From assembly GCA_014654775.1 (NCBI GenBank), contig JACVZW010000007.1:508580-572579 (forward strand): DNA of 64,000 bases. The letters run 5' to 3'. The notes beneath the pieces were generated by a model. It saw nothing but the letters and a program-made list of their open reading frames with translations. It had not been told where the DNA came from and did not search any database. Positions 13,561 to 43,910 of the stretch are shown here, piece after piece; the first letter of the stretch is position 1, and every line of letters starts with the position of its first letter. The DNA is from Paracoccaceae bacterium. Lineage in GTDB: Bacteria; Pseudomonadota; Alphaproteobacteria; Rhodobacterales; Rhodobacteraceae. The position numbers were made by a program, and so were the translations under genes.

Positions 13561-13564
13561 GAAC

Positions 13565-13608: not shown

Positions 13609-13635
13609 TTCCCAAGCTGCTGCGGAGGGCCGCGC

Positions 13636-15656: not shown

Positions 15657-15670
15657 GGCACACTCAACCC

Positions 15671-15689: not shown

Positions 15690-15706
15690 GCAACCGGGAG
15701 CAAGAA

Positions 15707-29464: not shown

Positions 29465-30451
29465 ATGGCGGATCGGCAACTGGGCATCACGCCCTTCGGA
29501 AGAACCGCGCGGGGCGAAGGGGTGCAGCGCATCACCATCGGTCGTGACGGGCTGACCGTGTCGATCCTCACATGGGGCGCGGTTCTGCAGGGCGTGTGGC
29601 TTGAAGGGGCGGCGCGTAACCTCACCCTCGGCTCCGACCGTCTGTCGGATTACGAAAACGGCATGTGCTATCACGGCTCACTGATCGGCCCTGTGGTCAA
29701 CCGCTTCACCAATGCCCGCGCCACCATCGCAGGGCAGGAGTTGCGGTTCGAGGCCAATCAGGACGGCAAGCATTGCCTTCATTCCGGCAGCGCAGGCACA
29801 CATCTGAAGGTCTGGCGTCTGGCCGAGGTCACCGAAGACAGCCTCCGCCTTGAACTCGACCTGCCCGATGGCGAAGGGGGCTTTCCCGGCAACCGCCGCA
29901 TCACCGCCCTTTGGCATGTCGACGGGGCCAGCCTGCATTTGCAGGTCCATGCCTCCACCGACCGCACCACCCCCGTGAACTTCGCCAACCACAGCTACTG
30001 GAATCTCGACGGCACCCCGACATGGGCAGGCCACCGCCTGATGATCGCCGCCGACAGCTACCTTCCCACCACCCCCGACTTCACCCCCAGCGGCGAGATC
30101 GCGGCCGTCGACGGCACGCCGATGGACCTCCGCAAGGCCCGCCGGATCGAACCGGGTGTCGATGTCTTCGACAATTGCTACGTCCTCGGCACCGCCCCCG
30201 GCCCCCTGCGCGAAGCCCTTCGCCTGACCGGGCAAACCGGCATCGGCCTTGTCGTCTCAACCACCGAACCGGGGCTGCAGGTCTATGACGGGCGCAATGC
30301 CTTCCGCCCGGGACGCAGCGCCTATGAGGGTTTCGCGATCGAGGCGCAGAACTGGCCCGACGCGCCCAACCATACGGGCTTCCCCTCCATCACGCTGGAA
30401 CCGGGGCAGGACTACCGCCAGCACACCGTCTGGCGCTTCACCCGCGACTAG
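29465..30451 (+). CDS. galM: Aldose 1-epimerase (galactose mutarotase)
   Basis: Interconverts alpha and beta anomers of aldoses such as galactose. It has 328 residues, as expected. Family residues are seen in NRFTNARATI, the catalytic His of NFANHSYWNLDG (near 175-186) and the catalytic Glu of GFAIEAQNWPDAPNH near the C-terminus. The preferred start ADRQLGITPFG follows AGGGGGGA-type sequence; an ATG 24 bases upstream is possible. It is a single gene unrelated to its neighbours; its stop overlaps that of the convergent puuD by four bases (CTAG). Confidence 0.92.
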   Translation: MADRQLGITPFGRTARGEGVQRITIGRDGLTVSILTWGAVLQGVWLEGAARNLTLGSDRLSDYENGMCYHGSLIGPVVNRFTNARATIAGQELRFEANQDGKHCLHSGSAGTHLKVWRLAEVTEDSLRLELDLPDGEGGFPGNRRITALWHVDGASLHLQVHASTDRTTPVNFANHSYWNLDGTPTWAGHRLMIAADSYLPTTPDFTPSGEIAAVDGTPMDLRKARRIEPGVDVFDNCYVLGTAPGPLREALRLTGQTGIGLVVSTTEPGLQVYDGRNAFRPGRSAYEGFAIEAQNWPDAPNHTGFPSITLEPGQDYRQHTVWRFTRD

Positions 30452-31698
30452 CCGTCAATGCCGCCCCTGCCCGCGCTGCGAAACCACTGCACGATAGCCG
30501 CCCGTTCCGCAGGCTCCATGTAGCTCAGGTTCCCCGGCGGCATGGCATGCGACACGCCCGCCTGCAGATAGATGCGCCGCGCCTCCTGCGCGATCTGTGC
30601 AGGCGTCTCCAGCACAACCCCCTTTGGCGGCCAATACATCCCCTCCCAGACAGGTTCCGCCGCATGGCACATGGCACAGCGCCCCTGCACGATGCCAACC
30701 ACATCCTCAAACCCGCTGGCCGAGGCGTAGGTGAGTGCCGCACCCGACACCTCCGCGCCCTCCTCTGCGGCAACACCCTTCATCGGCGCAGTAGACAGCC
30801 ACGCGATGATCAGGAACAGGACCGCCGTCGCCGCCCAAGTCCAATGCGGGCTGCCCTTCCGCGCATGCCGCGTGTTGAACCAGTGCCGGATCGTCACGCC
30901 CATCAGAAAGACCAGCGACGCAATCAGCCAGTTCCACTCCGTGGCAAAGACCAAGGGGTAATGGTTCGACAGCATCAGAAACAGGACAGGCAGCGTCAGG
31001 TAATTGTTATGCGTGCTGCGCTGCTTGGCGATCTTGCCGTATTTCGGGTCCGGCACCCGCCCCGCCTTCAGATCGGCCACCACGATCTTCTGGTTCGGGA
31101 TGATCACCATGAACACGTTGGCCGACATGATCGTCGCCGTGAACGCCCCCAGATGCAGCAACGCCGCCCGCCCCGAAAACACCTGCGCATATCCCCAGGA
31201 CATCGCCACCAGCACAACGAATAGCGCCACCATCAGGACGGTCTGATTGGCATTCACGAAAACCCGGCAGAGCGTCGTATAGACCGCCCAGCCGAAGGCC
31301 AGCGAGGCAAGCGAGATCGCCACCGCCTGCCAGACCTGCAACTCCATCACCGTCGGGTCGATCAGGTACAGGTCTGCGCCAAGGTAATAGACAAGCACCA
31401 GCATGGCGAAACCCGACAGCCACGTCGCATAGCTTTCCCATTTGAACCACGTCAGATGCTCAGGCAGCCGCTCAGGGGCCACAAGGTATTTCTGGATGTG
31501 ATAAAATCCCCCACCATGGACCTGCCATTCCTCGCCATGCGCAAGTTCCGGCATCCCCGGTGCCTTCCGCAGGCCAAGGTCCAGCGCGATGAAATAGAAG
31601 GATGACCCGATCCATGCGATCGCCGTGATCACATGCGTCCAGCGCGCCGCGATCTCCACCCATTCCCACAGCACGGCCCAGTCATAGATGCCTTCCAT
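30448..31698 (-). CDS. puuD: Membrane-bound urate hydroxylase PuuD with C-terminal cytochrome c domain
   Basis: Oxidises urate to 5-hydroxyisourate at the membrane, feeding electrons to the respiratory chain through its haem instead of producing peroxide. It has 416 residues: eight or so membrane helices in residues 15-305 (DUF989 region, with THVITAIAWIGSSFYF and the conserved RHWFNTRHA), then a soluble cytochrome c domain with haem motif Cys341-Ala-Met-Cys344-His345 and a probable axial Met in HAMPPGN. It opens the urate-to-glyoxylate gene group and is divergent from a LysR regulator. No uricase of the soluble type is seen. Confidence 0.95.
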   Translation of the reverse strand: MEGIYDWAVLWEWVEIAARWTHVITAIAWIGSSFYFIALDLGLRKAPGMPELAHGEEWQVHGGGFYHIQKYLVAPERLPEHLTWFKWESYATWLSGFAMLVLVYYLGADLYLIDPTVMELQVWQAVAISLASLAFGWAVYTTLCRVFVNANQTVLMVALFVVLVAMSWGYAQVFSGRAALLHLGAFTATIMSANVFMVIIPNQKIVVADLKAGRVPDPKYGKIAKQRSTHNNYLTLPVLFLMLSNHYPLVFATEWNWLIASLVFLMGVTIRHWFNTRHARKGSPHWTWAATAVLFLIIAWLSTAPMKGVAAEEGAEVSGAALTYASASGFEDVVGIVQGRCAMCHAAEPVWEGMYWPPKGVVLETPAQIAQEARRIYLQAGVSHAMPPGNLSYMEPAERAAIVQWFRSAGRGGIDG

Positions 31699-31813
31699 CG
31701 GCGCGCGTCCCTTTGTCCGTTTACCGAAAGGCTATACCGCCCCGCATTCCCCTGTTAATCCTTCAAATGCCCAATCACTTTCAAATCCCGGCAAAGAATG
31801 GGGCGCGGCGGCC

Positions 31814-32752
31814 ATGTCCTATGTGAACAACATCAGAATGTTCGTGCGTGTCTACGAATTGGGCAGCATGAGTGCGGCGGCCCGCGACCAACGCTGCTCG
31901 CCCGCCGTCGCCTCTGCCCGCATCTCGGAACTGGAAAAGCATCTCGGCGTCCGCCTCTTCAACCGCACCACCCGCAGTCTACAACCCACCGAAAACGGCC
32001 GCATCTTCTATGACGGCGCGCGCCGCGTGCTGGACACGATCGACGAGGCAGAGGCCGCCGTGATGGACGTGACCCAGAATCCACGTGGCACGCTCTTCAT
32101 CGCGGCGCCCTTGGGCATCGGGCGGCGGTTCATCGCGCCCCATGTTCCGGCCTTCAAGGACCTCTACCCCCAGATCGACCTGCGCCTGCGCCTCTCGGAC
32201 CGGGTGATCGACGTCACAGCCGAAGGGCTCGATATCGCCTTCCACCTTGGGCTGCTGGAGGATTCCACCCTCAAAGTCCGCCTCATCGCAGAATGCCCCC
32301 GCATCCTCTGCGCCGCCCCCGCCTATGTCGCCCGGCGCGGCATGCCCGCCGATGGCGCGGCGCTGGTGCAGGACCGGCATGATTGCCTCAACCTCCGCTT
32401 CCCCGGCGCAAAGGAATTCCAATGGACGCTGCAAACGCCCGAAGGCCCCCGCCGCTTCGAAATCGCAGGCCCGTACGAATCCGATGATGGCGACGTGCTG
32501 ACGGGCTGGGCGCTGGACAGCCACGGGATCGTGCTGAAACCGATCTTCGAGGTGGCCGAACATCTGAAGGACGGCACACTGATCCCCGTCGCCACCGCCA
32601 CACCGCCGCTGCCGACGCAGCTTTCCGTCCTGTCGCAGCACCGCAGGCTCAAGGACCCAAAGGTCCGGCTCTTCACCGATTACATCGTCACCCGCATCAA
32701 GGCGGATATGGCCGCGCGCATGGCCGGACTGCCCGCCCTCGCCACCCCATGA
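31814..32752 (+). CDS. LysR-family transcriptional regulator
   Basis: Probable regulator of the divergently transcribed puuD. From the chosen ATG it has 312 residues. The N-terminal helix-turn-helix covers residues 5-65 (GSMSAAARDQRCSPAVASAR, then KHLGVRLFNRTTRSLQPTENG); the rest is a periplasmic-binding-like effector domain (GTLFIAAPLGIGRRFIAP). The upstream in-frame start would overlap the puuD start region and is rejected. The 115-base gap has two TTCAAAT copies (31762 and 31780) 18 bases apart that might be part of its site. The effector (urate, allantoin or other) is unknown. Confidence 0.88.
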   Translation: MSYVNNIRMFVRVYELGSMSAAARDQRCSPAVASARISELEKHLGVRLFNRTTRSLQPTENGRIFYDGARRVLDTIDEAEAAVMDVTQNPRGTLFIAAPLGIGRRFIAPHVPAFKDLYPQIDLRLRLSDRVIDVTAEGLDIAFHLGLLEDSTLKVRLIAECPRILCAAPAYVARRGMPADGAALVQDRHDCLNLRFPGAKEFQWTLQTPEGPRRFEIAGPYESDDGDVLTGWALDSHGIVLKPIFEVAEHLKDGTLIPVATATPPLPTQLSVLSQHRRLKDPKVRLFTDYIVTRIKADMAARMAGLPALATP

Positions 32753-33423
32753 CCCTGACGACCTTGATCGACGCGCCCCCTTGGCGCGTGGATATGGCCG
32801 AGGGCGCAGGCCCCGACCTCATCCTTGCCTTCGCCAGCATCGGCCACGATCCGACCCGCCCGCCCTCGCCCGAATTCGTGGCCTCCAGCCGCGCACAGGG
32901 CCGCCGCGCGCTCTTCCTCATGGACGCAAGCCGCAGCTGGGGCCTTGACCCCGCCTTCCCGGACATCCTCCACCGTGCCCTTGCCGCCGCTGGCCCCGCC
33001 CAGCGCCACCTCGCCATCGGTTCCTCCATGGGCGCAACCATGGCCCTACGCGCCGCCGCCCATGTGCCCTTCGACGCGATCCTCGCCATCGGCCCGCAAT
33101 CCCACCTGCACGATCCCCGCTGGTCCGCATGGACAGCCCGCCTTACCGATCCCGGCCCCCCTGCCTTGACCAAAGGCCCTTGGACGGTCCTCTTCCACGC
33201 CCTCGACGATGACCGCGATCAGGCCTTGGGTTTCCCACAGCAGCCGGGAACAGACCACTTGCTCTTTCCCGGCCTAACCCATTCCCGCCTTGGCCCGTGT
33301 CTCAAGGAGCGCGGCCTCCTGTCCGGCCTCATCGACGCCGCCCTTGCCCACGACCGCCGCCGCCTCCTGCGCATCGCCACCGCTGCAGGCGGGGTCCAGC
33401 GCCGCAAAGCTATGCCAGCCTAA
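32749..33423 (+). CDS. Predicted alpha/beta hydrolase
   Basis: Small predicted hydrolase of 224 residues with no recognised specific family. A nucleophile-elbow type motif, GSSMGATMALRAA, near residue 90 and IGPQSHLHDPRW near 120 suggest an alpha/beta hydrolase fold; a candidate acid and base are Asp in FHALDDDRDQ and His in FPGLTHSRLG. No signal peptide. The ATG overlaps the LysR stop, so the two are coupled. Its place in the urate group may point to hydrolysis of a ring-opened intermediate, but nothing in the sequence proves that. Confidence 0.7.
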   Translation: MTLTTLIDAPPWRVDMAEGAGPDLILAFASIGHDPTRPPSPEFVASSRAQGRRALFLMDASRSWGLDPAFPDILHRALAAAGPAQRHLAIGSSMGATMALRAAAHVPFDAILAIGPQSHLHDPRWSAWTARLTDPGPPALTKGPWTVLFHALDDDRDQALGFPQQPGTDHLLFPGLTHSRLGPCLKERGLLSGLIDAALAHDRRRLLRIATAAGGVQRRKAMPA

Positions 33424-33438
33424 GATATCGACGATATC
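33424..33438. promoter_or_regulatory. GATATC-GAC-GATATC repeat before the antitoxin gene
   Basis: Two copies of the self-complementary hexamer GATATC three bases apart lie 43 bases before the antitoxin start, directly after the hydrolase stop. Ribbon-helix-helix antitoxins often repress their own gene at such short repeats, so this is a candidate operator. Confidence 0.4.
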
Positions 33439-33480
33439 AGCCGTTATCCCAGTCAGCGCGACAGGGGGAATCCGGCCACC

Positions 33481-33693
33481 ATGGCAAGTATCATCATCCG
33501 CAACCTCGAAGACGACGTAAAGGCCCGGCTCAAGCTGCGCGCCGCCACCCATGGCCGCTCGATGGAAGAAGAGGCCCGCGACATCCTCCGTCTCGCCGTG
33601 GGCGCCGTCGATCCCCGCGCCGATCTGGGCGCCGCCATCGCTGCCCGCTTCGCCGATCTGGGCGAGGCGCTCCCGCTTCTCGACCGGGCCTAA
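33481..33693 (+). CDS. FitA-like ribbon-helix-helix antitoxin
   Basis: Small protein of 70 residues. The start MASIIIRNLEDDVKARLKLR and HGRSMEEEARDIL match the FitA/VapB-type ribbon-helix-helix domain, which binds DNA as a dimer and neutralises a PIN-domain toxin through its C-terminal tail. Its stop lies two bases before the ATG of a PIN-domain gene, the usual antitoxin-first order. A repeat upstream may be its operator. Confidence 0.85.
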   Translation: MASIIIRNLEDDVKARLKLRAATHGRSMEEEARDILRLAVGAVDPRADLGAAIAARFADLGEALPLLDRA

Positions 33694-33695
33694 CG

Positions 33696-34121
33696 ATGAT
33701 CCTGCTCGATACGCCGATCCTGTCCTCGCTGATGGCGCCCGACCCCGACCCGCGCCTCTTCCGCTGGTTCGCGCGCCATCCCGCCACGCTCCTCCACATC
33801 TCCACCGTGACCGAGGCAGAGCTTCTCGCCGCCGCCGCCCGCCTGCCGGAAGGAAAGCGTCAGCGCAGCATCGCCCAGATCGACGCGATGGTGGGCGAAG
33901 ATTTCGCAGGCCGTGTCCTGCCGCTCGACAGCGCCGCCGCCCGCGACCTTGCCGCGATCCTCGCCCGCAGCAGCCGCGCGGGCATCCGCATTCCCATGGC
34001 CTGCGCCCAGAACGCGGCCATCGCGCGCGCCAACGGGGCAAGACTCGCCACCCTCACCCCCGACCTCTACGCCCATACGGGCATCGACTGGCTCGACCCG
34101 CTGGCTCAGGACCCGCGATAG
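33696..34121 (+). CDS. PIN-domain (FitB/VapC-like) protein, catalytic site incomplete
   Basis: Presumed toxin partner of the preceding gene; PIN toxins are Mg-dependent ribonucleases. It has 141 residues. Asp5 (LLDTPIL) and Glu40 (TVTEAEL) are in place, and Asp123 (TLTPDLY) may be the fourth acid. The third acidic position, normally the Asp of a PDAxIAA-type motif, falls at Met101 in IPMACAQNAAIA. Loss of that residue would be expected to weaken or abolish cleavage. The last 16 bases overlap the convergent uraH gene. It may be a decayed toxin kept for its antitoxin-binding or regulatory function. Confidence 0.8.
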   Translation: MILLDTPILSSLMAPDPDPRLFRWFARHPATLLHISTVTEAELLAAAARLPEGKRQRSIAQIDAMVGEDFAGRVLPLDSAAARDLAAILARSSRAGIRIPMACAQNAAIARANGARLATLTPDLYAHTGIDWLDPLAQDPR

Positions 34122-34465
34122 GTCGAATAGGCGAAGGGCGAAATCAGCAGCGGCACATGGTAATGCTGCCCCGCGTCCGGCACGCCAAAGCGGATCGGGA
34201 TTTGGTCCAGAAACAGCACCCCCTCCCCCGCCTGCCCCGTCGCGCGCAGATACTCCCCGGCAAAGAAGACCAACTCATAGGTCCCTTCGGCAAAGTCCTT
34301 CCCCGTCAGCATCGGCGCATCCGTCCGCCCATCGGCGTTGGTCACCGTCTCGGCGATTTTGCGATGGGAATTCCCGCTCACCCGGTAAAGCGCGATCTTC
34401 ACCCCCGCCGCAGGCTTGCCGCGGCCTGTGTCCAGAACATGGGTCGTCAACCGTCCACCACTCAT
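34106..34465 (-). CDS. uraH: 5-Hydroxyisourate hydrolase UraH
   Basis: Hydrolyses 5-hydroxyisourate, the PuuD product, to OHCU. It has 119 residues, typical of the transthyretin-related protein family. The N-terminal TTHVLDTGRGKPAAG motif (His9) and the diagnostic C-terminal tetrapeptide YRGS (residues 116-119) are both present, as is HYHVPLLISP before it. It is monocistronic on the minus strand, divergent from the allantoinase/OHCU decarboxylase gene across a 155-base gap. Its last codons overlap the end of the PIN-domain gene by 16 bases. Confidence 0.96.
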   Translation of the reverse strand: MSGGRLTTHVLDTGRGKPAAGVKIALYRVSGNSHRKIAETVTNADGRTDAPMLTGKDFAEGTYELVFFAGEYLRATGQAGEGVLFLDQIPIRFGVPDAGQHYHVPLLISPFAYSTYRGS

Positions 34466-34620
34466 GCGATCCTCCTGCCTTGCCCGCCCATCCTAACGCC
34501 AACCCGCCGCTTCGCGCGACAGGATCACACCCGGATAGGTCTTTCTGGCATTTTTTGATAAACCCCGCCGCCCTTCCCGCCTAAGCTGGCCGCAGCACTA
34601 CCCAAACCGGGATCATCACC

Positions 34621-36036
34621 GTGAACCGCTACCCGCGCGATTTCCGGGGCCACGGCCCCAACCCGCCCGATGCCCAATGGCCGGGGGGCGCAAAGATCGC
34701 GATCTCTCTCGTCCTCAATTACGAAGAGGGGGGCGAGAACAACCTTTTGCATGGCGATGCTCAGTCCGAAGCCTTTTTGTCCGACATCGCCGGCGCCCAG
34801 CCCTGGCCGGGACAGCGCCATTGGAACATGGAATCCCTCTACGATTACGGCGCGCGGGCGGGGTTCTGGCGGCTCCACCGCCTCTTCACCGAACGGGGCC
34901 TGCCCGTCACCATCTACGGCGTCACCTCAGCCCTCGCCCGCAACCCCGAACAGGTCGCGGCCATGAAAGCGGCAGGCTGGGAAATCGCCTCGCACGGCCT
35001 GAAATGGGTCGATCACCGCGACATGCCCGAGGATGTCGAACGCGCCCAGATCGCGGAATCCTTTCGCCTCCACGAAGAAGTCACAGGCGAAGCCCCACGC
35101 GGATGGTACACGGGCCGCTGCTCCATGAACACCGTGCGCCTTACGGCGGAAACCGCCCGCCTCGACTGGATTTCCGACACCTATGATGACGACCTGCCCT
35201 ATTGGCTGGAACTCGGCGACCGCGACCAACTCGTGATCCCCTACACGCTCGAGGCCAACGACATGCGCTTCGCCACCGCGCCGGGCTATATCGAGGGCGA
35301 ACAGTTCTTCACCTACCTTCGCGACAGTTTCGACACGCTCTATGCCGAAGGTCAGGCGGGCCGCGCCAAGATGTTCTCCATCGGCCTGCATTGCCGCCTG
35401 ATCGGCCGCCCGGGCAAGATCGCGGGCCTGATCCGCTTCCTCGACCATGCCGCCGCCCATGACGGCGTCTGGTTCGCCCGGCGCATCGACATCGCGCGCC
35501 ACTGGTCCGCCACCCAGCCCCACCGCCGCATCGAACGCCCCTCGCAAATGACCAAGGACCGTTTCGTCGCACGTTTCGGCGGCATCTTCGAACATTCGCC
35601 ATGGATCGCCGAAGGTGCATGGTCGCTCGAACTCGGCCCCGCGCACGACTGCGCCACGGGCCTGCACAATGCGCTCGCCCGCATCTTCCGCAGCGCATCG
35701 CCCGACCAGCGCCTCGCCGTGCTGCGCGCGCATCCCGATCTTGCAGGCAAACTCGCCGCCGCGAAACGCCTCACCCCCGAATCCACCGCAGAACAGGCCA
35801 GCGCCGCGCTTGACGCGCTGACAGATGACGAACGCGCCACCTTCCAGCGGCTCAACACCGCCTATGTGGCCAAGCATGGCTTCCCCTTCATCATCGCCGT
35901 GCGCGACAACAGCAAGGCCTCCATCCTGCAGGCCTTCGCCACCCGCATCGGCAACGACACTGCGACCGAATTCGTCACCGCCTGCCGACAAGTCGAACGC
36001 ATCGCCGAACTGCGCCTCAAGGACATCCTGCCATGA
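34621..36036 (+). CDS. Fused allantoinase (PuuE type) and OHCU decarboxylase
   Basis: Bifunctional enzyme of 471 residues predicted to catalyse two consecutive steps: OHCU to (S)-allantoin (C-terminal domain) and allantoin to allantoate (N-terminal domain). Residues 1 to about 300 are a polysaccharide-deacetylase/NodB-like allantoinase (LNYEEGGENN at 32-41, SHGLKWVDHRDMP at 124-136, GLHCRLIGRPGK at 255-266). Residues about 310-470 are an OHCU decarboxylase (HPDLAGKLAAAKRLTPES, His371 as catalytic His, then LNTAYVAKHGFPFIIAVR). The start is GTG, with no better ATG upstream. Coupled by ATGA to the next gene. Confidence 0.95.
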   Translation: MNRYPRDFRGHGPNPPDAQWPGGAKIAISLVLNYEEGGENNLLHGDAQSEAFLSDIAGAQPWPGQRHWNMESLYDYGARAGFWRLHRLFTERGLPVTIYGVTSALARNPEQVAAMKAAGWEIASHGLKWVDHRDMPEDVERAQIAESFRLHEEVTGEAPRGWYTGRCSMNTVRLTAETARLDWISDTYDDDLPYWLELGDRDQLVIPYTLEANDMRFATAPGYIEGEQFFTYLRDSFDTLYAEGQAGRAKMFSIGLHCRLIGRPGKIAGLIRFLDHAAAHDGVWFARRIDIARHWSATQPHRRIERPSQMTKDRFVARFGGIFEHSPWIAEGAWSLELGPAHDCATGLHNALARIFRSASPDQRLAVLRAHPDLAGKLAAAKRLTPESTAEQASAALDALTDDERATFQRLNTAYVAKHGFPFIIAVRDNSKASILQAFATRIGNDTATEFVTACRQVERIAELRLKDILP

Positions 36037-36875
36037 CCGGATATTACGCCCCGACGGGCGGCCTGCCCCCGCAGACCAGCCTGATGACCGGCCGCGCCAT
36101 CTTCACCACGGCCTATGCCTTCCTGCCCAAAGGCGTCTTCTCCGACATTGTCACCTCCTCCCTTCCCGGCTGGGCCAAGACCCGCCTCTGGCTGATCGCC
36201 CGGCCCATGACAGGCTTTTCCGAAACCTTCAGCCAATATGTGATGGAGGTCGCCCCCGGCGGCGGCTCCGACGCGCCCGATCCGGAAACGGGGGCGGAAC
36301 ACTGGCTCTTCTTCACCCACGGCCTCGCCACCCTCACCATCGGCGATCAGGCGCAAGAGGTGGAGGCGGGCTCCTATGCCTACATCCCCCCCGGCACACA
36401 CTGGACACTCCTTGCCGAAGGGTCCGAACCCACCCGCTTCCACTGGCTGCGCAAACTCTACGAACCCGCCCCCGGCCTGCCCGCGCCCGACCCGATCCTG
36501 ATCAACGAACGCGACTTGGCCCCGATCGCCATGCCCGACACGCAGGGGCGCTGGGCCACCACCCGCTTCGCCGATCCCGCCGACCTGCGCCATGACGCCC
36601 ATGTGAACATCGTCACCTTCCAGCCGGGCGGCCTGATCCCGTTTGAAGAAACCCATGTCATGGAACACGGGCTCTTCGTCCTCGAAGGCAAGGCTGTCTA
36701 CAAACTCAACACCGACTGGGTGGAGGTGGAGGCGGGCGATTTCATGTGGCTGCGCGCCTTCTGCCCGCAAGCCTGCTACGCGGCGGGACCGGGTCCCTTC
36801 CGCTATCTCCTTTACAAGGATGTCAATCGCCACGCCAAACTGCGTGGACCGGGTGCCTTCGGCCCGCCCCGGTGA
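36033..36875 (+). CDS. allE: (S)-Ureidoglycine aminohydrolase (AllE/UGHYD type)
   Basis: Two-cupin protein of 280 residues that releases ammonia from (S)-ureidoglycine to give (S)-ureidoglycolate. The manganese site of the family is readable: Glu206 and His208 in FEETHVMEHG, His212, and Gln246 in PQACYA; Tyr261 and Lys262 in LLYKDVNRH match substrate-binding positions of the plant enzyme. The first cupin (HWLFFTHGLATL) lacks this metal set. Often mislabelled allantoicase. Coupled to the allantoinase fusion and followed, after a repeat, by ureidoglycolate lyase. Confidence 0.9.
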   Translation: MTGYYAPTGGLPPQTSLMTGRAIFTTAYAFLPKGVFSDIVTSSLPGWAKTRLWLIARPMTGFSETFSQYVMEVAPGGGSDAPDPETGAEHWLFFTHGLATLTIGDQAQEVEAGSYAYIPPGTHWTLLAEGSEPTRFHWLRKLYEPAPGLPAPDPILINERDLAPIAMPDTQGRWATTRFADPADLRHDAHVNIVTFQPGGLIPFEETHVMEHGLFVLEGKAVYKLNTDWVEVEAGDFMWLRAFCPQACYAAGPGPFRYLLYKDVNRHAKLRGPGAFGPPR

Positions 36876-36895
36876 CGGCAGACAAACCGACAGCC

Positions 36896-36952
36896 CTCAT
36901 CTTCTGTCGAAAAATATCCTGCGGGGGTCCGGGGGTGCAAAACCCCCGGTCC
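36896..36952 (+). repeat. Hairpin repeat, copy A, between allE and allA
   Basis: CATCTTctgtcgAAAAATAT followed by GCGGGGGTCC and a hairpin CCGGGGGT / ACCCCCGG with a 5-base loop. It resembles the 49.5 and 60.9 kb copies (CTTCATCTTGGC, AAATACTCTC, GGGGGTCC). It lies within an operon, so if it terminates it would lower allA expression. Confidence 0.6.
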
Positions 36953-36974
36953 GACACCAGCCACAAGGCGCGAC

Positions 36975-37448
36975 ATGACCACGATCCGCACCGAACCCCT
37001 CTCCGCCGCCGCCTTCGCCCCTTTCGGCGATGTGCTCGAGGCCACGGGCGACTTCCGCCTCATCAATGCTGGCCTCTGCCGTCGTCACCATGATCGCGCC
37101 CTGCTCGACTTCGGCGCCGATGGCCGCGCAGGCCTCTCCATCTTCAAGGCCGAACCGCGCGCGCTTCCCTACCGCTTCGACCTGATAGAACGCCACCCGG
37201 AGGGAAGCCAAGCCTTCCTCCCCATGACCGCCGATCCCTTCCTCGTCATCGTGGCCGAAAGCCCCGCCCACACCCCCCGCGCCTTCCTCACCGACGGCGC
37301 GCAAGGCATCAACCTGCATCGCCGCACATGGCATGGCGTGCTCACACCCCTCTACCTCCCCGGCCTTTTCGCCGTGGTGGACAGGATCGGCACCACCCCG
37401 AACCTTGAGGAACATCGCTATCCCGCGCCATGGACCGTGATCGCCTGA
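36975..37448 (+). CDS. allA: Ureidoglycolate lyase AllA
   Basis: Cleaves (S)-ureidoglycolate to glyoxylate and urea. It has 157 residues, the family's usual size. Motifs include the N-terminal FAPFGDVLE, YRFDLIERHPEGSQAFLPM (residues 55-75) and GINLHRRTWHGVLTPL near 115, the metal/substrate segment of the cupin-like fold. Last gene of the plus-strand allantoin group; it converges on a GAPDH gene with a five-base gap. Its product glyoxylate is the substrate of the bhc-encoded cycle just downstream. Confidence 0.94.
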   Translation: MTTIRTEPLSAAAFAPFGDVLEATGDFRLINAGLCRRHHDRALLDFGADGRAGLSIFKAEPRALPYRFDLIERHPEGSQAFLPMTADPFLVIVAESPAHTPRAFLTDGAQGINLHRRTWHGVLTPLYLPGLFAVVDRIGTTPNLEEHRYPAPWTVIA

Positions 37449-37453
37449 AGCGA

Positions 37454-38428
37454 TCACCCCATCAGCCGCGCGACATCCAGCATGCGGTTGGAAAAGCCCC
37501 ATTCGTTGTCATACCAGCCGAAGACCCGCAGCATCCCCCCGGCGGTGACCCGCGTCTCCGGGCAGGCCATGACGATGCTCTCGGGCCGCGCCCTCAGATC
37601 GGTGGACACGAGCGGCCGATCCGTCGCCCCGATCACGCCCCCCGCCGCCCGCAGTGCCGCGTTCACGTCCTCCGCCGTCACCTTCCGCGCCGTCATCACC
37701 GAAAGATCGACGCAGGAGACCGAGGCCGTGGGCACCCGCACTGCAGACCCCTCGATCCGCCCCGCAATCTGCGGCAAGACCACATCCAGCAAGCGGCTGG
37801 CTGAGGTCGTCGTCGGCACCATCGACAGCGCCGCCGCCCGCGACCGCGGATAATCCGCTGCGGGCGCATCCACCGTGGGCTGGCTGCCCGTGTAGCAATG
37901 GATCGTCGTCATCGATCCCGTCACCACACCCCAATTGTCATCAATCAGCCGTGCCAGCGGCGCCAGCGCATTGGTCGTGCAAGAGGCATTGGACACGATC
38001 GCCTGCCCACCCAACACCCCTTCATTCGCCCCCAGCACCACGGTGACATCCGCCGCCTTCGACGGCCCCGACACCAGCACCCGGGCAGCGCCCGCGCGCA
38101 GGCCCCGCTCCGCCACGTCCCGCGCATCGGCGCGGCCCGTGCATTCCATCACCACATCTACCCCTGCCAGAGCGAGGGTCGAAATGTCCGGCGTCTGGTG
38201 CAGCGGGATCGCTCGCCCATCCACCACCAGAGCACCGGGTTCCAAGGCCACCGCCCCGCGCCACGGCCCAAAGACGCTGTCATATTCAAAGAGATAGGCG
38301 CACATCTCCGCCCCGGCGATGTCGTTGATCCCGACGATCTCCAGCCCCGGCCATCGCGCAGGTGTCTGCAAGGCCGCGCGAAGCACCGACCGCCCGATCC
38401 GCCCGAACCCGTTGATGAAGACGCGCAT
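37454..38428 (-). CDS. gap: Glyceraldehyde-3-phosphate dehydrogenase family protein
   Basis: NAD-dependent dehydrogenase of the GAPDH family, 324 residues. The NAD fold starts with INGFGRIGRSVL; catalytic Cys150 is in SNASCTTNALAP, and HCYTGSQPTVD and FGWYDNEWGFSNRM complete the family pattern. An erythrose-4-phosphate or GapB-like role cannot be excluded. It lies between the purine and bhc groups but is separated from bhcD by a strong terminator, so it has its own promoter. Whether it is the main glycolytic copy is not visible from this window. Confidence 0.88.
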   Translation of the reverse strand: MRVFINGFGRIGRSVLRAALQTPARWPGLEIVGINDIAGAEMCAYLFEYDSVFGPWRGAVALEPGALVVDGRAIPLHQTPDISTLALAGVDVVMECTGRADARDVAERGLRAGAARVLVSGPSKAADVTVVLGANEGVLGGQAIVSNASCTTNALAPLARLIDDNWGVVTGSMTTIHCYTGSQPTVDAPAADYPRSRAAALSMVPTTTSASRLLDVVLPQIAGRIEGSAVRVPTASVSCVDLSVMTARKVTAEDVNAALRAAGGVIGATDRPLVSTDLRARPESIVMACPETRVTAGGMLRVFGWYDNEWGFSNRMLDVARLMG

Positions 38429-38513
38429 ATGACCAAGCCTCCCCGCCCGATGCGCCAGTCAGACCATGGCCCCGCAAGGGGTTCAATGCCTGAAACGAAA
38501 TATGATCAAAACC

Positions 38514-38541
38514 GTAGGATGGGCAGTATTGCCCATCCTAC
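38514..38541 (-). terminator. Terminator of the bhcABCD operon
   Basis: A perfect 12-bp stem, GTAGGATGGGCA / TGCCCATCCTAC, with a 4-base loop, eight bases after the bhcD stop. On the minus strand it is followed by GGTTTTGATC. It separates the bhc operon from gap. Confidence 0.8.
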
Positions 38542-38548
38542 GCCAAGG

Positions 38549-39508
38549 TCAGACCGCGACCTCCACACCCAGCCCGCGCTCCCGCGCGCGCTGCACGGCC
38601 ACAGCCGCCACCGCCAGATCCTGCAACCCGACGCCAGTGCCGTCGAACAGCGTGATCTCCGCCTCCGACCGCCGCCCCGCATCCGCCCCGGTCAACACCG
38701 CACCCAAGGGCACAATCTCCCCCGCCGCCACCAGGCCTGCCGCCACGGCATGCTGCGCCTCGCCGATGCTAACTGCCTGGGCCACCTCATCGGTGTAAAG
38801 CCGCGCCTTCGCCACCAGCGCGACCTCCACCTCCTGCTTGCCCCTGGTATCCGTCCCCATGCAGGCCAGATGGGTGCCCGGCCCCACATGCGCCGCCATC
38901 AGCGACGCCGCAGGCGAAGAGGTGATGGTGATGATCGCCTCCGCCTCCATCATCCGCTCCAATCCCACCGCCTCGAAGGGAAGGCCCAGATCCGCCGCCA
39001 CCGCCGCCAGCTTGGGCAGCATTTCGGGATGCAGGTTCCATGCGATCACCCGCTCCCAATCCCTGACCCGCGCCGCCGCGCGCAGTTGGAACCCTGCCTG
39101 ATGCCCCGCCCCCACAATGCCCAGCACCCGCGCGTCTTTCCGCGCCAGCCGGTCGATGGACAAGGCCGAAGCCGCCGCCGTCCGCCGAGCCGTCAGCAGA
39201 TTGCCACCGACCATCGCCGTGGGCCGCCCACTTTCCGGATCGAACAGATAGACCGTCGATTGGTGGTTGGTGATCCCGCGGCCCGCGTTGCCGGGGAAAT
39301 ACCCCCCCGCCTTCACGCCCAGCATCCCCCCCGCCCGGTCCAGCCCGGACTTGAACCCGTATTGCCGCCCCTCCCCCAGCGCCTCACGCACCACGGGGAA
39401 GTTGTAAGCCTCCCCCCGCGCCATCGCGGCAAAGGTGGCCGCCACCGCCGTATAGGCATCCTCGGGCGAAACGAGGTCGGCAATCAGCGCCTCGGGAACG
39501 ATCAGCAT
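38549..39508 (-). CDS. bhcD: Iminosuccinate reductase BhcD
   Basis: Reduces iminosuccinate to L-aspartate with NAD(P)H, closing the beta-hydroxyaspartate cycle. It has 319 residues of the ornithine cyclodeaminase/mu-crystallin family. Family motifs are GMLGVKAGGYFPGN near residue 62, VGGNLLTARRTAAASALS near 100 and the dinucleotide motif GIVGAGHQAGFQLRA near 130. On its own it would be called an ornithine cyclodeaminase; the direct link to bhcC, bhcB and bhcA decides the name. Last gene of the operon, after a 94-base gap containing a hairpin. Confidence 0.9.
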   Translation of the reverse strand: MLIVPEALIADLVSPEDAYTAVAATFAAMARGEAYNFPVVREALGEGRQYGFKSGLDRAGGMLGVKAGGYFPGNAGRGITNHQSTVYLFDPESGRPTAMVGGNLLTARRTAAASALSIDRLARKDARVLGIVGAGHQAGFQLRAAARVRDWERVIAWNLHPEMLPKLAAVAADLGLPFEAVGLERMMEAEAIITITSSPAASLMAAHVGPGTHLACMGTDTRGKQEVEVALVAKARLYTDEVAQAVSIGEAQHAVAAGLVAAGEIVPLGAVLTGADAGRRSEAEITLFDGTGVGLQDLAVAAVAVQRARERGLGVEVAV

Positions 39509-39545
39509 AGGGCATCCTTGTCAGCAAAAGGCTTCGACCGGGCAG

Positions 39546-39570
39546 GCGGGGGGAGCCACGCTCCCCCCGC
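39546..39570 (-). repeat. Hairpin between bhcC and bhcD
   Basis: A perfect 10-bp stem GCGGGGGGAG / CTCCCCCCGC with a 5-base loop, next to a run of eight C. It looks like the hairpin half of the dispersed repeat family without the CTTCATCTTGGC end. It may set the ratio of BhcD to the other enzymes. Confidence 0.5.
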
Positions 39571-39602
39571 ACCCCCCCCTGTTTCTCAGTGTCGGACGTG
39601 GT

Positions 39603-40766
39603 TCAGTAGGCCTTCCCGCGCGCCGAGACGGGCCAGACCACCTCAACCTTCCCGTTCCGGACGCCCACATACCAGTCATGGACGTTGCAGGTCGGGTCGC
39701 AATGCCCCGGCACCAGCCGCAGCTTGTCGTTCACCTTCAGCACGCCTGCCGGATCGTCGATCACCCCGTGCTCGTCGCTGCACTTGATGTATTTCACATC
39801 CGTCCGCCCAAAGATCACCGGCAGCCCGCTGTCCACCGACTGCGCCTTCAGCCCCGCATCGCAGATCGCCCGATCCACCTTCGCATGGCTCATGACCGAG
39901 GTCAGGATGAACAGCGCGTTTTCCCACTCTCCCTGATCGATGCGCTTGCCGTCCTTGTCCAGAATGCGCCCGTAATCCGCATCCATGAAGGCGTAGGATC
40001 CGCATTGCAGCTCGTTATAGACCCCAGAGTTCCCTTCGAAATAATAGGACCCCGTGCCGCCACCGCCGACGATGTCACACTCCAGCCCCTCGGCCTTCAA
40101 CGCCTCCACCGCATCGCGCACCATGGCGACCGCGATGTCGATCTTGGCCTTGCGGTCCTCATACCTGTCCATGTGCTGCATCGCGCCCTGATAGGCCTGA
40201 ATGCCCGCGAATTTCAGCCCCGGCGCGGCGTCGATGGCCTTGGCCAAAGCCACCACCGCAGGCGTCGTCGTCACGCCACAGCGCCCCGCGCCGCAGTCGA
40301 TCTCCACCAGACATTCCACCGTTGTCCCGTGCCTCACCGCCGCCGCCGACAGGTCCGCCACATTGGCCGGATCATCGACACAGCAGATCGCCCGCGCACC
40401 CAGCTTCGGGATACGCGCCAGACGGTCGATCTTGGCCGGATCGCGCACCTGATTGCTGACCAGCACATCCTTGATGCCGCCCCGCGCAAAGACCTCCGCC
40501 TCGCTCACCTTCTGGCAGCAGACGCCCACCGATCCGCCCAGCCGTTCCTGTAGCAGGGCCACATCCACCGATTTGTGCATCTTGCCATGCACCCGGTGCC
40601 GCACGCCCATCTCCTGCGCGAACCGCCCCATCTTGACGATGTTGCGCTCCAGCGCATCCAAATCTAGCACAAGGCAGGGCGTCTGGATATCCGCCTCATC
40701 CATCCCCGGCAGCGCGGGGATATCATAGCCCACTTCCAACCCATCGAGTTTCACCGGCGCGTTCAT
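39603..40766 (-). CDS. bhcC: beta-Hydroxyaspartate aldolase BhcC
   Basis: PLP- and metal-dependent aldolase that joins glycine and glyoxylate into beta-hydroxyaspartate. It has 387 residues of the D-threonine aldolase-like/DSD1 family. The PLP-binding Lys is probably Lys62 in VHGKMHKSVD; YGA-type strand GIQAYQGAMQHM, GGGGTGSY near 245 and CGSYAFMDADYG near 265 follow, and the C-terminal metal site is PGHCDPTCN. Begins five bases after bhcB. It would be annotated as a generic D-threonine aldolase without its neighbours. Confidence 0.92.
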   Translation of the reverse strand: MNAPVKLDGLEVGYDIPALPGMDEADIQTPCLVLDLDALERNIVKMGRFAQEMGVRHRVHGKMHKSVDVALLQERLGGSVGVCCQKVSEAEVFARGGIKDVLVSNQVRDPAKIDRLARIPKLGARAICCVDDPANVADLSAAAVRHGTTVECLVEIDCGAGRCGVTTTPAVVALAKAIDAAPGLKFAGIQAYQGAMQHMDRYEDRKAKIDIAVAMVRDAVEALKAEGLECDIVGGGGTGSYYFEGNSGVYNELQCGSYAFMDADYGRILDKDGKRIDQGEWENALFILTSVMSHAKVDRAICDAGLKAQSVDSGLPVIFGRTDVKYIKCSDEHGVIDDPAGVLKVNDKLRLVPGHCDPTCNVHDWYVGVRNGKVEVVWPVSARGKAY

Positions 40767-40770
40767 ATCC

Positions 40771-41742
40771 TCACCCCTTCATCCAAGGCAGCCTGTCCAG
40801 ATCCACATTCCCACCGGTCAGAATCACTCCGACCCGCTTGCCCCGGAACCGATCCGGGTTCTTCAGGATCACGGCCAGCGGCACGGAACAGCTGGCCTCG
40901 ATCACGATCTTCATCCGCTTCCAGTGCAGCTTCATCGCCTCCACAATCTCCTCCTCCGTCGCGGTCAGGACATCGGTCGCGTAGGTTTTCACGAAATGCC
41001 AAGTCAGCTCCTTCAGCGGCACCTTCAACCCGTCGGCCACCGTATCGGGCGCATCATCCGCAATGATATGGCCCGCCCGGAAACTGCGCGCCGCATCATC
41101 GGCGTTCAGCGGCTCGGCCGCGAAAATCTCCACCTTGGGCGCGATGGCCGACAGCGTCAGGCAGGTGCCCGAAATCATCCCGCCCCCGCCGATCGGGGCC
41201 ACCACAGCGTCCAGCCCCTCTACCTGCTCCATCAACTCGCGTGAACAGGTCCCTTGCCCGGCGATCACGCGCGGATCGTTGTAGGGATGCACGAAATCCG
41301 CCCCCGTGCGCGCCTGCACCTCGGCAAAGACCGCCTCGCGGCTGGACGTCGACGGCTCGCATTCCACGATCACCCCGCCATAGCCGCGCACCGCATCCTT
41401 CTTGGCCTGCGGCGCCGTCCTCGGCATCACCACTGTACAGGGAATCCCCCGCCGTCCCGCCGCATAGGAAAGGCTTAACGCATGGTTCCCGCTGGAATGC
41501 GTGGCCACCCCGCGCTCCAGCTGATCCTCGCGCAGACCGAAGACGGCATTCGACGCCCCCCGCACCTTAAACGCCCCGGCCTTCTGGAAGTTCTCGCATT
41601 TGAAGAACAGCTCCGCCCCGGTCAGTTCGTTCAGGAAGGACGAGGTCAATACCGGGGTCCGGTGGATATGTGGCGCGATCCGCGCATGGGCCGCCACCAC
41701 ATCCTCATAGGTTGGCACGCTCAATCCCTGAAAATCCTTCAT
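40771..41742 (-). CDS. bhcB: beta-Hydroxyaspartate dehydratase BhcB
   Basis: PLP enzyme that removes water from beta-hydroxyaspartate to give iminosuccinate. It has 323 residues of the threonine dehydratase/serine racemase fold. PLP Lys59 is in AFKVRGASNA; the substrate loop is SSGNHALSLSYAA near 85 and the phosphate loop GGGGMISGTCL near 184; the cofactor-facing LTGGNVD is at the C-terminus. It begins 10 bases after bhcA. Read alone it would be called threonine dehydratase. Confidence 0.92.
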   Translation of the reverse strand: MKDFQGLSVPTYEDVVAAHARIAPHIHRTPVLTSSFLNELTGAELFFKCENFQKAGAFKVRGASNAVFGLREDQLERGVATHSSGNHALSLSYAAGRRGIPCTVVMPRTAPQAKKDAVRGYGGVIVECEPSTSSREAVFAEVQARTGADFVHPYNDPRVIAGQGTCSRELMEQVEGLDAVVAPIGGGGMISGTCLTLSAIAPKVEIFAAEPLNADDAARSFRAGHIIADDAPDTVADGLKVPLKELTWHFVKTYATDVLTATEEEIVEAMKLHWKRMKIVIEASCSVPLAVILKNPDRFRGKRVGVILTGGNVDLDRLPWMKG

Positions 41743-41752
41743 TGCCGCCCCC

Positions 41753-42943
41753 TCACTCCGCCGCCATGGCCATCGGCACCGCCGACCCGCGATAGAACTC
41801 CGCCGCCGCCGCCACGCCCGATCCCAGCCGAACACCCCAGCCCAGATCGGCCATGCACATTTCGGCCGTGGCAAGGCCACCCAGCACCATCACATCCGTC
41901 AGCATCCCCAGATGCCCGATGCGGAACACCTTCCCCGCCACCTCGCCCAGCCCCACCCCGAAGGCCACGCCGTATTTCTCCGCCGCCAGTTTCACGATGT
42001 CCGTGCCATTGCACCCGGCAGGCACCACCACCGCCGTCACCGTATCGGAATACAGATCGCTTGATGCCGCGCAGGGCCGCATCCCCCATGCCGCCACCGC
42101 ACGCCGAACCCCTTCCGCCAACCGCGCATGGCGGGCATAGACCTGATCCAGTCCCTCCTCCTCCAGCATCTCGACGGATTTCGCGAGACCGGCGATCAAC
42201 CCGACCGCCGGCGTGTAAGGATAGCCACCGCCCGCATAGCTTTTAAGCATGTCGCGGAAATCAAAGAAGGTCCGGGGAAGCGTCGCCCCCTCCATCGCCG
42301 CCAGCGCCTTGTCGGACACCCCAAGGATCGCCAGACCCGCCGGCAGCATGAATCCCTTCTGGCTGCCCGCCACGGCGATATCTACTCCCCATCCGGCCAT
42401 GTCAAAGGGCATCGACCCGATCGACGACACGCCATCCACAAACAGCATCGCCCCATGCCCCGCAGCATCCATGGCGCGCCGTATCCCGGCGATATCCGAA
42501 CGCACCCCCGTCGCCGTCTCGTTATGCGTGGCCAGCACCGCCTTGATCCGGCCTGCCTTGTCCGCCCGCAGCGCCGCCTCGATCGCCGCCACGGGCGCGC
42601 CCTGCCCCCAAGGCGTCTCGATGATCTCCACCTCCAGCCCATGCCGCTGGCACAGATCGATCCAGCGATGGCTGAACATCCCGAACCGCGCGGCCAGAAC
42701 CCGATCCCCCGGCGACAGCGTGTTGGTGATCGCGGCCTCCCAGCCGCCCGTCCCGGTCGACGGCAGGATGATCACCTCGCCCCCCGCCATCCCCAGCACC
42801 CGCCGCACACCCGCCGCCGCAGGCCGGAACAGCTTGCCGAAGGCGGCAGAGCGGTGGTCCAGCGTCGGCATGTCGCAGGCTTTGCGGATCGCCTCGGGGA
42901 TATTGGTCGGACCGGGAATGAAGACGGGATTCTGAAAGGACAT
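41753..42943 (-). CDS. bhcA: Aspartate-glyoxylate aminotransferase BhcA
   Basis: Transfers the amino group from aspartate to glyoxylate, giving glycine and oxaloacetate, the net product of the cycle. It has 396 residues of the serine-glyoxylate aminotransferase family. PLP Lys196 is in VAGSQKGFMLPAG; FIPGPTNIPEAIR at residues 8-20, STGTGGWEAAI near 62 and GYPYTPAV later match the family. The chosen ATG has GAGGTGG upstream; the in-frame start 24 codons earlier falls in the intergenic operator region. First gene of the bhc operon, divergent from bhcR. Confidence 0.93.
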   Translation of the reverse strand: MSFQNPVFIPGPTNIPEAIRKACDMPTLDHRSAAFGKLFRPAAAGVRRVLGMAGGEVIILPSTGTGGWEAAITNTLSPGDRVLAARFGMFSHRWIDLCQRHGLEVEIIETPWGQGAPVAAIEAALRADKAGRIKAVLATHNETATGVRSDIAGIRRAMDAAGHGAMLFVDGVSSIGSMPFDMAGWGVDIAVAGSQKGFMLPAGLAILGVSDKALAAMEGATLPRTFFDFRDMLKSYAGGGYPYTPAVGLIAGLAKSVEMLEEEGLDQVYARHARLAEGVRRAVAAWGMRPCAASSDLYSDTVTAVVVPAGCNGTDIVKLAAEKYGVAFGVGLGEVAGKVFRIGHLGMLTDVMVLGGLATAEMCMADLGWGVRLGSGVAAAAEFYRGSAVPMAMAAE

Positions 42944-43094
42944 ATCGGCCACCTCGGTTGGGGATAGGCGCAAGCTACCCCCCGCAAACCCATCACACAA
43001 TTTTTTCGAAAACATTTTTCATTACCTTGAAATCCAATCATCCCCTCATAAAATCAAAAGCTTGCGCTTTTTCATGTGAACCGGACGCTTCTTC
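42944..43094. promoter_or_regulatory. Divergent bhcA/bhcR promoter region
   Basis: This 151-base gap is notably AT-rich in the middle. It contains the palindrome TTTTCGAAAA (43003-43012) and the inverted repeat AAAAGC-TTGC-GCTTTT (43056-43071), both candidates for BhcR binding. In Paracoccus BhcR is a glyoxylate-responsive regulator of the bhc promoter. Confidence 0.6.
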
Positions 43095-43910
43095 ATGCCC
43101 ACGAAACCCCGCGGCCGACCCAAGGCCTTTCACGACAAGACCGACCAGAACACCGTTCAGGCGCTCGACCGTGCGCTGGGACTTCTCTCCCTGCTTGCAG
43201 CCCATCCCGGCCTGACGCTTTCAGAACTTGCCGAAACCTCCGGTCAGGCGGTCGCCACCGTCTTTCGCGCCCTCGTCACCCTGCAAGCCCATGGCATGGT
43301 CGAATCCCAAGATCCCGCGCAGGTCTGGCATATCGGCCCCGGCGCCTTCCGCGTCGGCTCGGCCTTCCTACGCCGGACAAAGGTCGTGGAACGCGCCCGC
43401 GCCGCGATGGACGGGCTCATGCGCGAGACAGGCGAAACCGCCAATCTGGGGGTAGAGGTAGGCGACGAAGTCCTCTTCCTCAGCCAAGTCGAAACCCATC
43501 AGGCCATTCGCGCCTTCTTTCCTCCCGGCACCATGGCACCCATGCATGTCTCCGGCATCGGCAAGGCGCTGCTGGCCTGGTATCCGGAGGAAAAGGTGAA
43601 AGGCATCCTCGCCCGCAAGGGCCTCGAACGCTTCACCTCCCTCACCAATACCTCAGAAACCGCCCTTCTGCGCGATCTGGCCCGCACCCGCGACCGGGGC
43701 TTCGCCATCGACGATCAGGAACGCGCCGAAGGCATGCGCTGCGTCGCCGCCCCCATCTTCAATGCCCATGGCGAACCTGTCGCGGGCCTCTCGGTCAGTG
43801 GCCCTGCCTTCCGCATGGGCCTCTCGGATGCCGCCCGCCTCGGCACCCTCGTCCGCGCCGCCGCCGACCGGGTCACCGAAGCCACGGGCGGCCAGCAACC
43901 CACAGGCTAA
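43095..43910 (+). CDS. bhcR: IclR-family regulator BhcR
   Basis: Transcription factor controlling the bhc operon, responding to glyoxylate in the characterised Paracoccus system. It has 271 residues. A basic N-terminal arm (KPRGRPKAFHDK) precedes the winged helix (residues 22-80, LSELAETSGQAVATVFRALV), followed by the IclR effector domain (RETGETANLGVEVGDEVLFL, then HVSGIGKALLAW and GMRCVAAPIFNAHGEPVAGL). It is divergent from bhcA across an AT-rich gap. The name rests on this position and the family. Confidence 0.9.
   Translation: MPTKPRGRPKAFHDKTDQNTVQALDRALGLLSLLAAHPGLTLSELAETSGQAVATVFRALVTLQAHGMVESQDPAQVWHIGPGAFRVGSAFLRRTKVVERARAAMDGLMRETGETANLGVEVGDEVLFLSQVETHQAIRAFFPPGTMAPMHVSGIGKALLAWYPEEKVKGILARKGLERFTSLTNTSETALLRDLARTRDRGFAIDDQERAEGMRCVAAPIFNAHGEPVAGLSVSGPAFRMGLSDAARLGTLVRAAADRVTEATGGQQPTG

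Follow-up and report, generated by a model that had tools for sequence, protein, structure and literature searches.

Does the beta-hydroxyaspartate cycle (BHAC), so far investigated as a pathway for glycolate from algae, also receive the glyoxylate that is set free when purines are broken down? The question is raised by a stretch of 64,000 nucleotides from a Paracoccaceae bacterium (assembly GCA_014654775.1, contig JACVZW010000007.1, positions 508,580 to 572,579 of the forward strand), here called the window and numbered from its first letter, in which the BHAC genes bhcABCD and their regulator gene bhcR adjoin genes for the conversion of urate to glyoxylate and urea. A sequence-only reading of this DNA had assigned puuD, uraH, an allantoinase/2-oxo-4-hydroxy-4-carboxy-5-ureidoimidazoline (OHCU) decarboxylase fusion, allE, allA, bhcABCD and bhcR to positions between 30448 and 43910, and NCBIfam and Pfam profile matches identified every one of these genes where it had been placed. 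We consider it probable that this is a composite catabolic locus in which purine-derived glyoxylate feeds the bhc cycle, giving a purine to oxaloacetate assimilation route by which purines serve as a source of carbon as well as nitrogen.

The enzymes required for such a route are largely encoded within the window. Xanthine dehydrogenase subunits and an accessory protein are encoded by xdhA, xdhB and xdhC (7199-12019, plus strand; three open reading frames (ORFs) at 7199-8791, 8788-11088 and 11075-12019), with scores of 595.3 bits for TIGR02963 (cut-off 467) and 1230.7 bits for TIGR02965 (cut-off 849.5), XdhC being recognised by Pfam domains. Urate oxidation is represented by puuD (30448-31698, minus strand), encoding a membrane urate hydroxylase (PF06181 Urate_ox_N, 455.8 bits) whose C-terminal cytochrome-like region scores below cut-off for PF13442 (20.3 bits against 27). 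The next steps are covered by uraH for hydroxyisourate hydrolase (34106-34465, minus strand; TIGR02962, 131.8 bits, cut-off 87.45) and by a puuE-uraD fusion (34621-36036, plus strand), in which allantoinase and OHCU decarboxylase are joined in a single protein (TIGR03212, 508.1 bits, cut-off 424.6; TIGR03164, 202.2 bits, cut-off 96.25), the activities of these two genes thus being identified by NCBIfam models over their cut-offs and that of PuuD by Pfam. The product of allE (36033-36875, plus strand) is predicted to be an (S)-ureidoglycine aminohydrolase (NF008373, 497.9 bits, cut-off 445) and possibly an allantoicase too, as it also passes NF040771, 'bifunctional allantoicase/(S)-ureidoglycine aminohydrolase' (463.6 bits, cut-off 350). 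For the allantoate step, no separate AllC or allantoicase family was recognised among the conserved neighbours of bhc, with small unannotated families set aside and the genome not searched for AllC. Ureidoglycolate lyase, releasing glyoxylate and urea, is encoded by allA (36975-37448, plus strand), which matches PF04115 Ureidogly_lyase with 171.2 bits (gathering threshold 23), its best NCBIfam model lying slightly below cut-off (245.1 bits against 260).

On the BHAC side, all four enzymes exceed their NCBIfam cut-offs and make up the complete enzyme set of the cycle: iminosuccinate reductase (bhcD, 38549-39508; NF045643, 514.7 bits, cut-off 500), 3-hydroxy-D-aspartate aldolase (bhcC, 39603-40766; NF045642, 764.3 bits, cut-off 690), beta-hydroxyaspartate dehydratase (bhcB, 40771-41742; NF045641, 598.7 bits, cut-off 550) and aspartate-glyoxylate aminotransferase (bhcA, 41753-42943; NF045640, 706.4 bits, cut-off 650), all on the minus strand, followed by the divergent gene bhcR for an IclR-family regulator (43095-43910, plus strand; NF045644, 404.8 bits, cut-off 350). 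The longest ORFs of bhcB and bhcA extend to 41880 and 43015, respectively. The most likely starts are nevertheless 41742 and 42943, since NF045641 begins at residue 55 of the long bhcB frame, NF045640 begins at residue 1 of the shorter bhcA frame, and an operator-like site coincides in part with the beginning of the longer one. The window thus spans most steps from xanthine to oxaloacetate. In the route that we propose, xanthine would be converted via urate and allantoin to glyoxylate by xanthine dehydrogenase, PuuD, UraH, PuuE-UraD, AllE and AllA, purine nitrogen would exit as urea and ammonia, and BhcABCD would turn two glyoxylate into one oxaloacetate, the stoichiometry that PMC8307300 gives for the cycle; the cell would in this way draw both carbon and nitrogen from purines. 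A urease is encoded elsewhere in the genome.

The purine genes do not form a single operon, puuE, allE and allA being on the plus strand and uraH and puuD on the minus strand; puuE and allE overlap by 4 bases and allE and allA are 99 bases apart. As puuE-allE-allA converge with bhc, the two groups are not co-transcribed in this window. The sequence-only reading had described a gap of 1.1 kb between allA and bhcD, which exists but is not empty: it holds an overlooked gene of the glyceraldehyde-3-phosphate dehydrogenase (GAPDH) family (37454-38428, minus strand), the stop end of which lies 5 bases from the end of allA.

We then asked how widely this neighbourhood occurs in a sample of 295 genomes, comprising one per genus of the window's family and a second genome of the window's own genus, in which BhcC exceeded its cut-off in 126 genomes and AllA was found in 273. 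Regions of up to 19.9 kb with bhcC in the centre were fetched for all 128 other BhcC places over cut-off (125 genomes, three of them with a second copy) and for 12 places below it; 92 of the 128 were uncut by a contig end, with a flank of about 9.4 kb on each side. Five urate-pathway genes (puuD, uraH, puuE-uraD, allE and allA) were scored as neighbours if a tblastn match extended over half or more of the query with an identity of no less than 38 percent. With each genome represented by a single place, at least one of these genes was found beside bhcC in 49 of 125 genomes, at least two in 38 and at least three in 35; the corresponding numbers for the 92 uncut places were 39, 29 and 28. Of the 125 genomes, 38 have allA inside the region retrieved around bhcC, compared to about 0.5 expected by rough arithmetic for one allA placed randomly in about 4 Mb, and the linkage therefore goes beyond chance. 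Absence of linkage in near relatives had been named beforehand as an argument against the proposal; at least three of the five genes lie beside bhcC in the same-genus genome (L101) and in 34 genomes of other genera. Among the best 80 loci of a GTDB scan, 33 had at least one gene, 28 at least two and 25 at least three, although some of these loci are cut short and they share organisms with the family sample, hence providing no independent count.

Clustering of the reading frames of the 128 regions, with bhc itself and frames antisense to bhc set aside, gave eight neighbour families present in more than 10 places, namely allE, a purine permease, uraH, puuE-uraD, allA, the GAPDH-family gene, a LysR-type regulator and puuD, the next being an ABC-transporter ATPase in 10 places. 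The glycolate oxidase gene glcD was near bhc in a single place of the 128, and the 80 GTDB loci included two such cases, one being a weak match. Purine breakdown is thus the recurring partner of bhc in this family.

The linked genes occur in several orders. The commonest full layout (10 of 140 regions) runs allE, bhcR, bhcABCD, an NCS2 gene for a purine permease, allA, puuE, uraH, a LysR gene and puuD, with allE, bhcABCD, uraH and puuD pointing one way and the others the opposite way, and five further regions have the same layout plus a GAPDH-family gene after bhcD. In this nested layout bhc lies within the purine cluster between allE and allA, whereas allE sits between puuE and allA in the window. 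In L088 and L128 the purine block is instead found beyond bhcR, each time with a gene order of its own. Outside the family, 385 genomes sampled from the class included 11 in which BhcB passed its cut-off, and among regions of up to 12 kb fetched for ten of these, puuE, allE, allA and a relative of 8-oxoguanine deaminase adjoin bhcD in one (L234), uraH, a LysR gene and a permease gene adjoin it in another (L236), a third has a permease relative only (L239, 46 percent identity), and the remaining seven had none of the purine genes searched for.

Relatives of BhcC were also found in 119 of 72,556 plasmid records (E 1e-100). Of 12 regions picked by eye, and thus not a random sample, seven have one or more of the urate-pathway genes beside bhc: those of Rhodobacteraceae bacterium SC52, Sulfitobacter sp. 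OXR-159, Pseudosulfitobacter pseudonitzschiae, Sulfitobacter sp. W027, Leisingera caerulea, Ruegeria sp. THAF33 and Paracoccus sp. SMMA_5. An eighth, from Methylobacterium oryzae, has genes for 8-oxoguanine deaminase, a permease and a molybdopterin protein beside bhc, and urate-pathway genes were not found beside bhc on the plasmids of Phaeobacter gallaeciensis, Paracoccus sp. Arc7-R13, Sinorhizobium meliloti and Tateyamaria omphalii. On the Paracoccus sp. SMMA_5 plasmid, bhcABCD and the genes for a purine permease, 8-oxoguanine deaminase (694.2 bits, cut-off 532), UraH and PuuD follow one another on one strand with successive spacings of 44 bases, a 1-base overlap, 17 bases and 192 bases, a run that looks like a single transcript. 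Two Sulfitobacter plasmids carry a gene of the AmiS/UreI family (Pfam) between bhcD and the GAPDH-family gene (L249 10926-11372 and L251 11402-11908); such relatives occur in only two of the 128 sampled bhcC regions, and the gene would be fitting for the urea freed by ureidoglycolate lyase. On the Phaeobacter gallaeciensis plasmid (L252 8042-10164), where neither bhcA nor bhcD is annotated in the region, bhcB and bhcC adjoin RidA-family and FAD (flavin adenine dinucleotide) oxidoreductase genes and a TRAP transporter, and bhcB and bhcC perhaps serve the use of hydroxyaspartate itself.

How could two convergent gene groups be coordinated? An alignment of 24 distinct bhcR-bhcA intergenic regions, whose BhcR is at least 70 percent identical to that of the window, revealed a strongly conserved stretch, from which a few, e.g., those of Rhodovulum, deviate, and which marks an operator-like site in the window at 42998-43021 (minus strand), the sole match in the window's genome at up to three mismatches. 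With the same tolerance, the pattern was found at exactly one site per genome in all of six chosen genomes, always some 2-3 kb away from bhcC in the direction of bhcA. The uraH-puuE intergenic region contains a conserved stretch of its own, distinct from the bhc operator-like one. A BhcR operator shared with the purine promoters was accordingly rejected, as the bhcR-bhcA site is the sole one in the window and in each of the six genomes, and BhcR probably does not act directly on the purine genes, since the single site lies near bhcA. According to PMC11323563, BhcR activates bhc in response to glyoxylate, and growth on glyoxylate and glycolate requires it. The switch proposed in the sequence-only reading, in which BhcR would turn on the cycle when purines are degraded, is compatible with the glyoxylate response reported there. 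Taken together, the single bhc-type site and the reported response of BhcR make glyoxylate itself the likeliest coupling between the two halves: glyoxylate made by AllA would act on BhcR and raise bhc expression, and the purine half would be controlled separately, probably by the LysR-type regulator encoded divergently from puuD (31814-32752, plus strand; Pfam HTH_1 and LysR_substrate, longest ORF from 31688), which adjoins puuD in many relatives too. One genome without a BhcC match (G051) carries a bhcR-like gene beside allA (L243 4417-5199; a partial piece of 345.0 bits at a cut-off of 350), in an arrangement that recalls that of AllR in E. coli.

Several observations weigh against assigning the cycle to purines. 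No urate-pathway gene was found near 78 of the 128 bhc places (53 of the 92 uncut ones), and BhcC exceeded its cut-off in 119 of the 273 AllA-containing genomes and in seven of the 22 others, i.e., with no clear co-occurrence. In a tree of concatenated BhcABCD from 115 loci and the window, 22 successive loci at one end, six of them cut short, showed no linkage. The window holds no second operator-like site, its purine genes included, the only other match being the same place read on the opposite strand. Moreover, the window's genome has one malate synthase, and genes resembling glcD, below the model cut-off, on other contigs; bhc need therefore not serve purines. Finally, the bhc cluster of Sinorhizobium meliloti lies near glcF, with an insertion sequence (IS) element between them. 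It could thus be that bhc serves glycolate, that purines are a nitrogen source only, with their glyoxylate passing to malate synthase, and that the linkage reflects catabolic clustering or a shared plasmid or island history. The convergent orientation in the window, the malate synthase and GlcD-like genes, the many plasmids with BhcC-like genes and the majority of unlinked bhc places would all agree with this. We nevertheless regard it as quite unlikely, as the variety of gene orders, the nesting of bhc between allE and allA and the co-directional run on the Paracoccus plasmid would hardly result from hitch-hiking, and no other pathway, glycolate oxidation included, recurs comparably around bhc.

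Inheritance from one ancestral cluster was likewise unsupported as the only account of the linkage. When loci in the BhcABCD tree were scored as linked (at least two purine genes; 35), unlinked and uncut (59) or cut and thus unknown (22), the linked state required 25 changes, whereas 21-35 (mean 28.4) were needed when the labels were shuffled 300 times, and is thus scattered almost like shuffled labels. This scatter is compatible with gains and losses alike, between which the tree does not discriminate. Given the many unlinked places, the scattered linkage, the lack of a clear co-occurrence and the glcF neighbourhood in S. meliloti, the bhc cluster is a module that can be coupled to different sources of glyoxylate. 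The purine-carbon route put forward from the window's sequence is therefore favoured by the linkage in relatives, the nested layouts and the plasmids, but most bhc places being unlinked, the lack of a clear BhcC-AllA co-occurrence and the presence of a malate synthase speak against a strict dependence. Glyoxylate carboligase was considered as an alternative outlet and discarded, since none of the 295 genomes had a match over cut-off with up to four candidates scored per genome, whereas the E. coli control passed; weaker relatives are present in all 295.

A further possibility is suggested by places in which the cycle is incomplete. A standalone bhcC immediately following allE was found in four regions that lack bhcA, bhcB and bhcD (L205 9401-10561, L206 9419-10561, L218 2443-3585 and L216 9404-10549), with BhcC over its cut-off in the first two (729.9 and 704.4 bits, genomes G211 and G025, respectively) and below it in L216 and L218. 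In G211 and G025 it occupies the position of the whole bhc cluster of other genomes, and no BhcD over cut-off was found in either genome; the gene may be a remnant or may have a separate use as an aldolase. Purines are rich in nitrogen and glyoxylate is reactive, and bhc beside purine genes might mainly remove glyoxylate while purines supply nitrogen, with no carbon route involved; a bhcC in purine clusters of genomes that cannot complete the cycle would suit such a role. On the other hand, all four bhc genes are kept in 32 of the 35 places with at least three purine genes, and the product of the full cycle is a C4 acid, which makes mere removal an unlikely account. As a genomic association, the reading of the locus as a purine to oxaloacetate route appears well supported, and from it we infer flux through the route, its induction by purines and a benefit to the cell.

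What, then, is the GAPDH-family gene between the two halves? It lies on the same strand as bhcD, 120 bases downstream, and 32 of 36 bhcD-GAPDH pairs in the 128 sampled regions are likewise less than 400 bp apart on the same strand. The window's genome has four GAPDH relatives, of which only this one is under the GAPDH-I cut-off (TIGR01534, 334.0 bits against 367.2), the three others passing it. In all 38 aligned sequences the Cys, the His, the Thr after the His and the Arg of RVP, which we take to be the catalytic and phosphate-site residues, are invariant, while several residues close to the phosphate sites are changed relative to each of the genome's three canonical copies, e.g., Gly to Ser after PTxT in 38 of 38. 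Erythrose-4-phosphate (E4P) dehydrogenase was rejected as its identity, with only 266.8 of 530.55 bits for TIGR01532, and the solved structures that matched best by sequence were GAPDHs (3l0d, 281.7 bits), ahead of the E4P dehydrogenase 2x5j (228.9 bits). Orthologues (E 1e-110 or better) were found in 113 of 295 genomes, 32 of them within 10 kb of a listed bhcC. As allA positions are missing from the list for 47 of the 113, the counts of at least 18 within 10 kb of allA, at least 43 within that distance of bhcC or allA and at least 11 near a listed allA but not bhcC are lower bounds; against the listed positions, about 70 of the 113 are near neither. Eight allA regions from genomes without a BhcC match were also inspected, of which two (G110 and G128) have a GAPDH-family gene near allA and one is that of G051 with its bhcR-like gene; most other frames in the eight are unannotated and might include another outlet for glyoxylate. 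The GAPDH-family gene belongs to a distinct group and is a recurrent third component of the locus. Candidate roles are triose-phosphate conversion in gluconeogenesis and a part in supplying pyridoxal phosphate, which three of the four Bhc enzymes require.

Two further features of the window should be mentioned. Next to xdhABC lies a BMP-type ABC transporter (11776-16804, plus strand) with an ATPase, two permeases and a substrate-binding protein (Pfam ABC_tran, BPD_transp_2 in two ORFs, and Bmp). Its binding protein has a B6-transporter model as sole NCBIfam match, far below cut-off (54.2 of 400 bits), and from the position of the genes the system may import a purine or nucleoside. Within the purine block, a PIN-domain reading frame (33297-34121; 28.9 bits, cut-off 23.6) is possibly a VapC-like toxin gene; it is absent from the conserved neighbour families of the 128 sampled bhcC regions.

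Is such a locus new? The bhcRABCD cluster of Paracoccus denitrificans comprises the same four enzymes and a divergent IclR-family regulator, for all of which the window's proteins exceed the curated cut-offs; its cycle has been described for glycolate and glyoxylate, whereas the window's cluster has urate genes and a gene of the GAPDH family as neighbours. Purines and allantoin are named as a source of glyoxylate in the introduction of PMC11323563, which also describes purine breakdown and glyoxylate use in E. coli (allA, gcl) as being under the common IclR-family, glyoxylate-sensing regulator AllR. In Rubrobacter xylanophilus, as described in PMC4016543, purine breakdown adjoins a glyoxylate-using glycerate pathway that starts at glyoxylate carboligase. 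E. coli and Rubrobacter convert glyoxylate to glycerate with loss of CO2, whereas in the window it would be converted to oxaloacetate via bhc. Purine catabolism of SAR11 as presented in PMC11698098 likewise involves PuuD, PuuE and UraD, with glyoxylate as the proposed carbon product, and the term 'hydroxyaspartate' is absent from the main text of that paper. No published description of purine-BHAC linkage was recognised in the literature searched, outside of which falls the 2019 paper that described the cycle. The component pathways are therefore known, and as far as these searches show the composite locus is a new arrangement.

A more far-reaching interpretation can be offered tentatively, and we hold it to be doubtful: in Rhodobacterales the bhc cycle would chiefly be the terminal module of a portable purine-to-oxaloacetate unit rather than a glycolate pathway. 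This unit would consist of three exchangeable pieces, i.e., the urate genes, bhcRABCD and a GAPDH-family enzyme dedicated to it, whose phosphate site is altered and whose role lies outside ordinary glycolysis; single pieces (such as bhcC, bhcR or the GAPDH gene) would have been retained in the purine cluster after loss of the rest. If purine-derived glyoxylate does feed the bhc cycle, a common bacterial group would assimilate the carbon of dissolved purines with zero carbon loss at the glyoxylate step, and BHAC genes encountered in surveys would not be a signal of glycolate alone.

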